A DNA stretch of 64,000 nt from positions 1,922,001 to 1,986,000 of the forward strand of contig NZ_PDJE01000001.1 of NCBI RefSeq assembly GCF_002563955.1, read 5' to 3'. The translations under genes and the position numbers were made by a program. The DNA is from Paramicrobacterium agarici. GTDB taxonomy: Bacteria > Actinomycetota > Actinomycetes > Actinomycetales > Microbacteriaceae. The notes beneath the pieces were generated by a model, which had not been told where the DNA came from, made no database searches, and saw only the letters and a list, made by a program, of their open reading frames with translations. Positions 47,439 through 51,153 of this stretch are shown piece by piece (positions within the stretch are counted from its first letter, which is position 1; the number at the start of each line of letters is the position of its first letter).

Positions 47439-47483
47439 CGTGTCGCGTACGGGAATGAACCGGCAGCAATCACGTTGCATTTG

Positions 47484-48527
47484 ATGATGAAACTCTCAGT
47501 GCTCGATCTCATTCCCGTCCGATCGCGACAGTCCACCGCGCAAGCCCTTCATGCGACGACGACGCTCGCGCAGAAGGCTGACAGCCTTGGCTACACGCGC
47601 TACTGGGTTGCAGAGCATCACAATATGAAAGCTGTCGCGTCGACAAATCCCGCAGTGCTTATTGGACTGCTGGCGTCGCGCACGCAGAGAATCAAGGTCG
47701 GATCGGGTGGGGTGATGCTGCCCAACCACTCTCCGCTCGTCGTCGCCGAGCAGTTCGCGCTTCTCGAGGCCGCAGCGCCGGGGCGCATCGATCTCGGTAT
47801 CGGCCGGGCACCGGGGAGCGATCCCGTGGTCACGGCTGTTCTGTCGCAGTCGGGCGCGACGAGCGACGTGAACCGCTTCCCGTCTCACGTGAGCGACATC
47901 ATCGCCCTCCTCAGTGATGAGGGTGCGAATGTGGAGCTGACGAGCGGTAAAGAGTACGCGCTGCGATCCACGCCGAAGGCGGATTCCGCGCCACCGGTCT
48001 GGCTTCTGGGTTCGAGTGACTACTCAGCATCTCTCGCCGCCTCATTTGGACTCCCGTACGTGTTCGCGAACCACTTCGCCGGTACAGGAGCCGAGCGCGC
48101 ACTCGACCTCTATCGCACAGGTTTTCGGCCATCGGCTTACGCAGAGGAGCCGGTGACGTTCATGACCGCGAACGCCGTCGTCGCCGAAACCGCCGACGAG
48201 GCATACGCCCAGGCCGTCCCTCAGCTTCTGCAGATGGCGCGCTTGCGCACGAACAAGCCCATGGGCGCCCTCGACACGATCGAGGAGGCGGCTGCTGCCG
48301 AAACGGACGCACTCACGCAAGAATTCATGCAGCAGTCGCTCAGCGGCTATATCATCGGCGACCCGAGCACTGCCGCGGCGAAAGCGCGCGCCCTCGCTGC
48401 TCAGCACGACGTCGACGAGCTCATGATCTCACCGGTCGCGGGAGCTCACGACGCGGATCCTCTGGATTCCGTCCCCGCTCGTGAACGGACACTGGAGCTT
48501 CTCGCCCGCGAGCTGCTCGAGCACTGA
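47484..48527 (+). CDS. LLM-class flavin-dependent oxidoreductase (MsnO8-like)
   Basis: 347 residues. Bacterial-luciferase fold. The N-terminus KLSVLDLIPVRSRQS and motifs RYWVAEHHNM, VGSGGVMLPNHSPLVVAEQF and GRIDLGIGRAPGSD match luciferase family group 1 proteins (MsnO8 type). Such proteins oxidise unknown substrates with FMNH2 or F420. ATG at 47484 or 47487 (ATGATG) are equally possible; ribosome-binding site is weak. Confidence 0.87.
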   Translation: MMKLSVLDLIPVRSRQSTAQALHATTTLAQKADSLGYTRYWVAEHHNMKAVASTNPAVLIGLLASRTQRIKVGSGGVMLPNHSPLVVAEQFALLEAAAPGRIDLGIGRAPGSDPVVTAVLSQSGATSDVNRFPSHVSDIIALLSDEGANVELTSGKEYALRSTPKADSAPPVWLLGSSDYSASLAASFGLPYVFANHFAGTGAERALDLYRTGFRPSAYAEEPVTFMTANAVVAETADEAYAQAVPQLLQMARLRTNKPMGALDTIEEAAAAETDALTQEFMQQSLSGYIIGDPSTAAAKARALAAQHDVDELMISPVAGAHDADPLDSVPARERTLELLARELLEH

Positions 48528-48538
48528 CGCAACGCATC

Positions 48539-49906
48539 TTACGCGGAATCCGACTCGCGCACGCGCTCGATGAGCTCGCGCCATGTCGTTGTCAGCTCCG
48601 ACTCGGCTAGCTGTGCTTCGAGGACGCAGGTCTGAGATGAGGTTAAGCAGCGGATGCGGTAGCGAAAACCGTCAGCTCCGGCTTCGCCCACGCGCAGCCC
48701 TCGTGCCCAATCGACGGTCTCGATGAGCGTTCTGAGGCGCGCGCCTTCGGGGCGCTCGTCAAGCTCTGCGCGCCATGAGCGGCGAACTCCCGCAACGCCG
48801 CCGGAACGTTCGACCACGATGCTGCGTGGGCTTGAATCCTGCTCGAGCGGCACGCTGTGCTCGGGTGTCACCTCGACACTCGTCCACGCATCGCGCACGG
48901 CCGCAGCTGTCCCTGCCCCGAAGAGCGCGCGTGCTGAGTCGATCGTCGCGGTCGCGAACTCGGCGAACGTTGCGTCGTGGGCGAGCGTGCCATGTGTGAG
49001 GGCGTCGTACCAGATTCGCCCGGCGACCTCCCACGCGTGACCGCCCAGCGTTGTCGCAAGAAGATAGAAGGCGTGATTGGGGATGCCGGAATTGATGTGC
49101 ACGCCGCCGTCATCGTCGTCAGTCTCGACGTAGTCAGTCATTGTCGCCGGCTGCGGATCTTTGCCCAGCACGTCGTCGTCATACGCCGTGCCCGGCGCCT
49201 TGAGCGATCTCAGCGCGGTGCCGCGAACCTGATCGGTGAACAAGCCCTCGCCGACGAGCCAACTGGCGCCATCCGACGTCTCTTGCCGAGAGTACTGTTC
49301 AACAAGACAGCCGAAGACGTCAGAAACTGATTCGCTGAGAGCTCCTGACTGCCCGACGTACCGCAGCGCCGCCGTGTGGCCCGTCACGCCGTGAGTGAGC
49401 TCGTGCCCGATGACCGAAAGCGAGATCGTGAAGCGCCGGAACACCTCGCCGTCTCCGTCCCCGAAGACCATCTGCGTGCCGTTCCAGAACGCGTTGTCGT
49501 AGTCATTGCCGTAGTGAACCGTCGCGTGCAGCGGCATCCCTTGCCCATCGATCGATGAGCGAGAGAATGCCTCGTCGAAGAGTCGGTACGTGTCTCCGAG
49601 CCCTGAATAAGCCTCGTCAACGGCGGCGTCGCCCGTTGCCGGCTCTCCCTCTGATCGCGCGAGTGAGCCGGGAAGCTGCTCGTGCTCATGCCCGTCGTAC
49701 ACGGCTCGCTCGAGGCCCCCGTTAGGCTCAGCCGCGAGCACACGCTGCTGCCGAGATCCCGACGCCTCGATGGCCGCCCGTCGACCGGGCTCTTGTGCGT
49801 TGAGTGTTGCGCGCGCCGCTCGCGGGGCCGAACCGGGCCCCGTTGCGCGGGCGATGCGATCGAGGAGGAACGGAGGAACGACACCGCGCCGTTGAGACCT
49901 GGCCAT
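48539..49906 (-). CDS. Protealysin-like M4 metalloprotease with C-terminal emfourin-like domain
   Basis: 455 residues. No signal peptide. Residues 1-60: short propeptide with VVPPFLLDRIAR, matching the PPL motif of protealysin-type precursors. Residues about 65-350: thermolysin-fold catalytic domain with HELTH (168-172), zinc ligand Glu192 in GALSESVSD and His270 in GGVHINSG. Residues about 361-455: an extra domain beginning SIVVERSGGVAGVRR and containing DGFRYRIR, which closely resembles emfourin, the small protein inhibitor normally encoded by a separate gene beside protealysin genes. The ATG follows GGAG by seven bases. The fusion suggests built-in control of an intracellular or atypically secreted protease. 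Confidence 0.88.
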   Translation of the reverse strand: MARSQRRGVVPPFLLDRIARATGPGSAPRAARATLNAQEPGRRAAIEASGSRQQRVLAAEPNGGLERAVYDGHEHEQLPGSLARSEGEPATGDAAVDEAYSGLGDTYRLFDEAFSRSSIDGQGMPLHATVHYGNDYDNAFWNGTQMVFGDGDGEVFRRFTISLSVIGHELTHGVTGHTAALRYVGQSGALSESVSDVFGCLVEQYSRQETSDGASWLVGEGLFTDQVRGTALRSLKAPGTAYDDDVLGKDPQPATMTDYVETDDDDGGVHINSGIPNHAFYLLATTLGGHAWEVAGRIWYDALTHGTLAHDATFAEFATATIDSARALFGAGTAAAVRDAWTSVEVTPEHSVPLEQDSSPRSIVVERSGGVAGVRRSWRAELDERPEGARLRTLIETVDWARGLRVGEAGADGFRYRIRCLTSSQTCVLEAQLAESELTTTWRELIERVRESDSA

Positions 49907-50022: not shown

Positions 50023-51153
50023 ATGCAGTTCGGAATCTTCAGCGTCGGCGACATCACTCAGGACCCGACAACGGGGCGAACGCCGACTGACGCGTCGCGG
50101 CTCAGCGACGTTCTCACCATTGCGCAGCATGCCGAAGATGTCGGTCTCGATGTCTTCGCGATGGGGGAGCACCACAACCCGCCGTTCTTCCCCTCGAGCC
50201 CTGTCGCGATCAACAGCTATCTCGCCGCGAAGACCTCACGCATCATCCTCTCGACGGCAACAACGTTGATCACGACGAACGACCCGGTGCGACTTGCCGA
50301 GGACTACGCGATGCTCCAGCATCTCTCGGGCGGGCGCATGGACCTCGTGCTGGGGAGGGGTAACACGGGCCCCGTATACCCCTGGTTCGGCGAGGACATC
50401 CGCCAGGGCATTCCGCTCGCCATCGAGAAGTACGGTCTCCTGCACAAGCTGTGGCGCGAAGAGTACGTCGACTGGGAGGGGCAGTTCCGAACACCGCTAC
50501 AGGGGTTCCAATCGACGCCGAGGCCGCTCGACGGCGTGCCGCCGTTCGTGTGGCACGGCAGCATTCGCTCGCCTCAGATTGCCGAACAGGCGGCGTACTA
50601 CGGCGACGGCTTCTTCGCGAATCACATCTTCTGGCCTGCATCGCACACTCAGCGCATGATCGGGCTCTATCGCCAGCGTTTCGAGCACTACGGGCACGGG
50701 TCGGCGGATCAGGCGATCGTGGGTCTGGGCGGTCAGGTGTTCATGCGCAAGAACTCGCAGGATGCTGTCAGAGAGTTCCGCCCCTACTTCGACAATGCCC
50801 CCGTGTACGGGCACGGTCCGAGCCTCGAGGAATTCACCTCGCAGACTCCGCTGACGGTCGGCAGCCCGCAGGAGGTGATCGACCGCACGCTGGGGTTCCG
50901 CGACTACGTCGGCGACTACCAGCGGCAGCTGTTCCTCATGGATCACGCGGGGCTGCCGCTCAAGACGGTTCTCGAACAGCTGGATCTGCTTGGCGAGGAG
51001 GTCGTGCCCGTGCTCCGCCGGGAGTTCGCACGCGTGCGTCCCTCTCACGTGCCCGAGGCGCCGACTCACGCTGCCCGGCTCGCTGCGGGGAATTCTCAGC
51101 AGCAGGAACCGGTTACACTGAGCGCGTCACCAGCAGGATCGGAGAACGAGTAA
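50023..51153 (+). CDS. CE1758-family FMN-dependent luciferase-like monooxygenase
   Basis: 376 residues. Luciferase fold with MQFGIFSVGDIT, FAMGEHHNPPFFPSSP, GRMDLVLGRGNTGPVYPWFG and GQVFMRK. It is followed in a one-base overlap (TAATG) by an FMN reductase of the partner family, which together form a two-component flavin monooxygenase whose substrate is unknown. CAGGAGCG lies upstream of the ATG. Divergent from the M4 protease. Confidence 0.9.
   Translation: MQFGIFSVGDITQDPTTGRTPTDASRLSDVLTIAQHAEDVGLDVFAMGEHHNPPFFPSSPVAINSYLAAKTSRIILSTATTLITTNDPVRLAEDYAMLQHLSGGRMDLVLGRGNTGPVYPWFGEDIRQGIPLAIEKYGLLHKLWREEYVDWEGQFRTPLQGFQSTPRPLDGVPPFVWHGSIRSPQIAEQAAYYGDGFFANHIFWPASHTQRMIGLYRQRFEHYGHGSADQAIVGLGGQVFMRKNSQDAVREFRPYFDNAPVYGHGPSLEEFTSQTPLTVGSPQEVIDRTLGFRDYVGDYQRQLFLMDHAGLPLKTVLEQLDLLGEEVVPVLRREFARVRPSHVPEAPTHAARLAAGNSQQQEPVTLSASPAGSENE

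Follow-up and report, generated by a model that had tools for sequence, protein, structure and literature searches.

The best-described counterparts of the protein considered here are protealysin from Serratia proteamaculans (precursor structure 2VQX) and its inhibitor emfourin, or M4in (6ZYG), which are encoded by two genes of one operon (PMC9505478). According to the portions of that article covered here, free inhibitor and enzyme bind 1:1 at the active-site region of the latter, and deletion of the inhibitor gene in Serratia lowers the cellular level of FtsZ, a protealysin substrate; the pair has been proposed to act as an enzyme/immunity system in interbacterial competition (PMC9505478). 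The covered portions of PMC6778150 describe the PPL motif of protealysin-type propeptides and report that protealysin accumulates as an inactive precursor, which is processed and activated after lysis. Its first self-cleavage, still inside the cell, cuts Arg-Ser/Val-Ile immediately ahead of the PPL motif (PMC6778150).

The window, i.e., the whole 64,000-nucleotide stretch of Paramicrobacterium agarici DNA that was analysed, carries a gene whose product is best read, from its sequence, as a single-chain form of this pair. The ORF list and its translation give one open frame that begins with ATG and contains no internal stop codon, and the encoded features are collected in Table 1. Two alignments define the conservation values used below: A4 comprises 52 proteins, 7 of which are fused, and includes 17 tails (7 fused and 10 split, with genus g49 of the same family represented), whereas A5 comprises 43 actinobacterial emfourin domains, 4 fused and 39 split.

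Table 1. Features of the fused gene and its product, in window coordinates.
Feature	Coordinates	Strand	Description and evidence
Whole gene	48539..49906	-	455 aa + stop; propeptide, M4 protease, linker and emfourin domain (ORF/translation, Pfam)
Protealysin-type propeptide region, residues ~1-60 (end approximate)	49727..49906	-	Alignment with the 2VQX precursor starts at residue 6
PPL-type motif VVPPFLL, residues 9-15	49862..49882	-	P11, P12, L14 and L15 in 52/52 rows of A4
Peptidase_M4 catalytic domain, residues 91-175	49382..49636	-	Pfam PF01447, 3.3e-29
HELTH zinc site, residues 168-172	49391..49405	-	Sequence; H168, E169 and H172 in 52/52 (A4)
Ser191-Glu192; Glu192 is the third zinc ligand	49331..49336	-	Alignment A4
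His270, equivalent of the catalytic histidine	49097..49099	-	52/52 (A4)
Peptidase_M4_C domain, residues 179-346	48869..49372	-	Pfam PF02868, 9.2e-52
Linker, residues 347-362, 16 aa	48821..48868	-	pLDDT <50 at 351-355; 15-50% identity among genus members
Arg361-Ser362/Ile363-Val364, candidate self-cleavage site at the linker/inhibitor junction (putative)	48815..48826	-	Resembles the Arg-Ser/Val-Ile site of protealysin (covered portions of PMC6778150)
Emfourin domain, residues 365-449	48560..48814	-	Pfam PF20242, 2e-10, 41.4 bits against a cut-off of 27; best Foldseek match 6ZYG
RSGGVAG loop in the emfourin domain, residues 367-373	48788..48808	-	R367, G369, G370 and G373 in 43/43 (A5) and 17/17 tails (A4)
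Asp412 in the ADGFRYRI stretch	48671..48673	-	43/43 (A5) and 17/17 tails (A4)

The protease part resembles protealysin both in sequence and in predicted fold. Its best PDB match by sequence is the protealysin precursor 2VQX (2.6e-110, residues 6–346), which is also the best fold match of the protease model (TM 0.97 on the target, 341 columns, rmsd 2.9). Because 2VQX is a precursor, the propeptide region should sit in the model much as it does in the crystal. The PPL motif blocks the S' sites. Its PP.LL pattern is invariant throughout A4; PLN_propep, the curated Pfam propeptide model, stayed below its cut-off of 28.1 (E 0.14, 12.4 bits). The preliminary description had claimed a PPL-type motif and a complete thermolysin-type zinc site for this protein, and both hold; His168, Glu169, His172, Glu192 and His270 are invariant in all 52 proteins of A4, including the 7 fused ones. 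Residue 191 (window 49334–49336) is Ser in the window protein alone, with Asn in 50 of the 52 rows and Ala in one; this substitution might weaken catalysis. Inspection of the N terminus by eye revealed no hydrophobic stretch of the signal-peptide type, and the protease is probably an intracellular, protealysin-like metalloprotease.

The C-terminal domain had been assigned to emfourin, an assignment that is upheld by the Pfam search and, at modest scores, favoured by fold comparison. The window protein and all eight other fused proteins scanned passed the cut-offs for M4, M4_C and Emfourin; these include four of the seven fused loci from named genomes and one of the three g49 proteins, which are all that were scanned of those two groups. 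In the PDB, the tail alone found no match by sequence, and a 29-sequence profile of actinobacterial emfourins retrieved only an unrelated chain at E 0.4. The AlphaFold2 model of the tail (mean pLDDT 89.5) was compared by Foldseek with 350,542 PDB chains, among which 6ZYG ranked first (probability 0.96, E 0.011, TM 0.44/0.40), with no match reaching E 0.001. A chance match to emfourin is unlikely, given that curated cut-offs are passed and that 6ZYG is the top fold match. In the full-chain model (mean pLDDT 90.7, pTM 0.78), confidence is high within the domains.

In the same Foldseek comparison (tail model, window 48542–48853), ranks 2, 4, 7, 25 and 32 went to Streptomyces subtilisin inhibitor-type proteins, the entries being 3sic, 2sic, 4hx2 and 4hx3, with probabilities of 0.25–0.80 and E of 0.05–0.32. 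A distant kinship of the folds is possible, although the resemblance may be due to chance, since viral p19 proteins rank among the same matches.

The emfourins of Klebsiella aerogenes and Caballeronia both pass the same Pfam Emfourin model; the Klebsiella protein, whose gene adjoins a protealysin-like gene, matches 6ZYG, the Serratia protein, at 5.8e-32. Alignment of A5 with a profile of two proteobacterial sequences by hhalign was weak (probability 16%), with the GG and Asp motifs in register, and the four fused chains (A2) aligned with the proteobacterial emfourins over the wrong region. Emfourin employs an Asp on the zinc as well as a hydrophobic loop. The equivalent of Asp412 is Asp in both proteobacterial emfourins aligned and in 6ZYG, aligned to one of them, with the register to the window resting on the weak 16% match. 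In A5, Arg367, Gly369, Gly370, Gly373, Trp378, Asp412 and Trp442 are invariant in 43/43 domains. The two tryptophans are absent from three of the 17 tails of A4, in which the other five residues are retained throughout. The Caballeronia emfourin lacks the Arg, which is thus not shared by all of the wider family. Directly after GG, the window protein has Val, a residue that 14 of the 43 A5 domains have there, against Phe in 22.

The survey of Microbacteriaceae that had been suggested for split and fused forms covered 199 genomes, with M4_C matched in 91 and PF20242 in 61; the latter number is an undercount, because the PF20242 search of the window's own genome missed the window tail. The 92 M4_C places, together with one from the genus member G001, make up 93 M4 places, 79 of which are directly followed, on the same strand, by an emfourin gene. 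Fusion is seen at another seven, of which four belong to the window's genus (g1) and three to genus g49; in five the inhibitor lies further off, in one none was found, and one is not protealysin-like. The view of the window gene as a one-chain form of a two-gene system thus agrees with a family in which the partners are mostly adjacent genes. The frame changes between the genes in 66 of the 79 split pairs and is the same in 13, in 11 of which a single stop codon separates the genes (examples among the split loci are L043, L065 and L079). Within the window's genus, four of five genomes carry the fused gene, and the fifth (G004) is without it. The window's own genome has a single M4_C match, and searches with two emfourin profiles (13/72, then 70/70 candidates scored) returned the tail itself only, so that no free inhibitor gene was found.

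Beyond the family, a scan of named genomes yielded at least 542 relatives, of which 80 were taken: 55 are split, 7 are fused, 2 carry the inhibitor at a greater distance, and for 16 no inhibitor was found. The last group consists entirely of Pseudomonadota, in which the actinobacterial model may miss inhibitors. Of 396 genomes sampled across the phylum, 52 have an M4_C match and 25 a match to the tail profile, and a shared frame marked only the window and G284 as fused. Among 149 genomes of the family of G284, identified from named records as Intrasporangiaceae, 83 emfourin matches were found in 78 genomes. At least 36 of these share a frame with an M4 match, another 35 lie in frames of at least 450 aa, and all 19 that were fetched from the latter group proved to be fused. 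At least 55 of the 83 matches are therefore fused, a count outside which lie 16 long-frame and 12 short-frame matches. The survey does not support a singular form: a second genus of Microbacteriaceae also has fused genes, and in a second family they are common. A sequencing error or frameshift artefact is excluded by the open fused frame in four genus members, three g49 genomes and seven named loci; the fusion is neither an artefact nor unique. Two other candidates were set aside. The emfourin-like match in G512 (L215) lies at a contig end in frame with SelB-type domains and is probably due to chance, and a match on a Pseudomonas plasmid that extended into the tail (from 91 matching records, one with coverage of at least 80%) is a split pair.

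The window gene is flanked by genes for luciferase-like monooxygenases (window 47475–48527 and 50023–51153), and an FMN reductase-type gene comes after the second of these. The three other fused genus members have the same gene order, and all four fused genes are open from end to end. In G004 (L211), some 165 bases separate the two monooxygenase genes, and neither protease nor tail is matched between them; protease and tail are thus absent together. The four fused genus genes form six pairs, over which dN/dS is 0.27–0.39 for the tail and 0.09–0.19 for the protease, and for the linker, computable in two of the six pairs, it is 0.92 and 1.11; these values are rough, as pS (0.48–0.96) is near saturation. 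Purifying selection seems to act on the tail, which is less conserved within the genus than the protease (40–61% against 71–85% identity).

Identity between the window tail and the split inhibitors of the family is 24–45%, with a median of 36% (77 of 79, two partial sequences being dropped), compared with 25–35% for the tails of the seven fused named loci and 22–31% for the three from g49. For the protease domain, the corresponding medians differ little, at 65% to split proteins, 64% to the seven named fused ones and 60% to g49. On the tree of 69 chosen protease rows, the fused state changes four times (3–4 in the bootstrap, which is not settled), and on a quick tree of all 92 family rows it changes twice. 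In a 62-row inhibitor tree, a branch supported at 98/95 separates the genus tails from the other fused tails. A single origin is not rejected by the AU test for either the inhibitor (p 0.559, with the constrained tree scoring higher) or the protease (p 0.214). The trees lean towards separate origins of the fusion, but one origin is compatible with both AU tests.

The best overall explanation, to which we assign a probability of roughly 0.6, is a tethered emfourin on a protealysin-like protease that is held by two successive locks and released by linker cleavage or loss of the tail. A flexible linker of 16 residues would attach the emfourin domain to the C-terminal end of the protease. Freshly made precursor would be restrained by the N-terminal propeptide, as inferred for protealysin; once the propeptide had been removed, the tethered emfourin would bind the active site and keep the mature enzyme switched off in the cell. 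Each enzyme would thereby carry one inhibitor copy at a high local concentration. A free inhibitor can be diluted after lysis and so can free its enzyme, whereas a tethered one would not be freed by dilution, and useful activity would therefore need cutting of the linker or degradation of the tail. The putative cut might fall, e.g., at Arg361-Ser362/Ile363-Val364, although this is a short motif and other residues occupy the place in the three other genus members. The analysis establishes the identity of the domains, the intact catalytic residues, the conserved inhibitor residues, the selection on the tail and the recurrence of the fusion; what we infer is inhibition in cis, the order of the two locks and linker cleavage. 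The self-inhibition proposed in the preliminary description is plausible.

Other roles of the fusion deserve consideration. It could serve only to equalise the amounts of enzyme and inhibitor, with the linker being cut soon after synthesis, whereupon the parts would behave as in the two-gene system. We regard this as unlikely; it would suit a linker that varies in length and sequence, a cut at RS/IV would leave an inhibitor beginning near the start of the free ones, and protealysin is described in the covered portions of PMC6778150 as cleaving itself at Arg-Ser/Val-Ile. Against it, the other three species do not conserve the candidate site as a motif. Distinctly less likely is an action between molecules, in which the emfourin of one chain would occupy the active site of another in an inactive dimer or larger assembly. 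Four of 14 fused proteins, among them that of the window, have linkers of 13–16 aa, which may be too short to reach the protein's own cleft, but those of nine other fused proteins (L181 left out) span 21–44 aa.

The tail might also act without inhibition, by serving stability or folding, or be a tolerated leftover of stop-codon loss. That some split loci are one mutation away from fusion (the 11 single-stop pairs among the 13 of 79 in the same frame) and that the tail diverges faster than the protease would both agree with such a role. However, four species keep the tail at dN/dS 0.27–0.39, the residues that never vary in the actinobacterial set are retained in it, and fusions are also common in a second family, all of which makes this explanation very improbable. 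An internal start that yields free inhibitor alongside the fused chain, so that both forms are present in the cell, would be compatible with the other readings and is slightly less probable still. The linker of the window gene does contain in-frame GTG codons, and in 5 of 14 fused genes a start lying within 20 codons of the domain has a Shine-Dalgarno match of 4–5 bases. Yet none of the four in-frame starts of the window gene has a Shine-Dalgarno match, whereas 47 of the 79 split inhibitors have a start with one, and the stretch scanned is devoid of ATG in all 14 genes and of any start codon in three of them. Judged from these codons, extra free inhibitor from an internal start in the window gene is not supported.

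A broader proposal may be formulated: Actinobacteria would have repeatedly and independently fused the protealysin–emfourin pair into a self-immune protease, a single-chain toxin/antidote whose release would depend on cutting an evolvable linker and not on dilution of the inhibitor. We consider this generalisation doubtful; against several origins, neither AU test rejects a single one.

The fused form finds no mention in the portions of the emfourin and protealysin literature covered here (PMC9505478, PMC7311988, PMC6778150). A natural fusion fixes the ratio of enzyme to inhibitor at 1:1 and removes dilution as a route of release, and it thus offers a clean test of how such proteases switch on. 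It also provides a ready-made single chain for determining the structure of the enzyme–inhibitor complex, 6ZYG, with one chain, being the only emfourin entry found in the PDB. Furthermore, the presence of split and fused forms within one family allows the two locks to be compared directly.

Compared with the protealysin and emfourin of Serratia, the window protein belongs to the same protease subfamily with a short propeptide carrying the PPL motif, and its tail falls into Pfam Emfourin and, at modest scores, leans towards the fold of 6ZYG; however, it is one polypeptide with a linker, and no free emfourin gene was found in its genome. The split pairs of other Microbacteriaceae, Micrococcaceae, Streptomyces, others and the Pseudomonas plasmid contain the same domains in the same order, but have at least one stop codon between the genes, plus a change of frame in 66 of 79. 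The fused proteins of Intrasporangiaceae (Phycicoccus, Knoellia, Pedococcus, Nostocoides and Janibacter), of a Propionicimonas MAG and of genus g49 share the architecture of the window protein, although their tails resemble its tail less (25–35% and 22–31%) than the split inhibitors of its own family do (median 36%).
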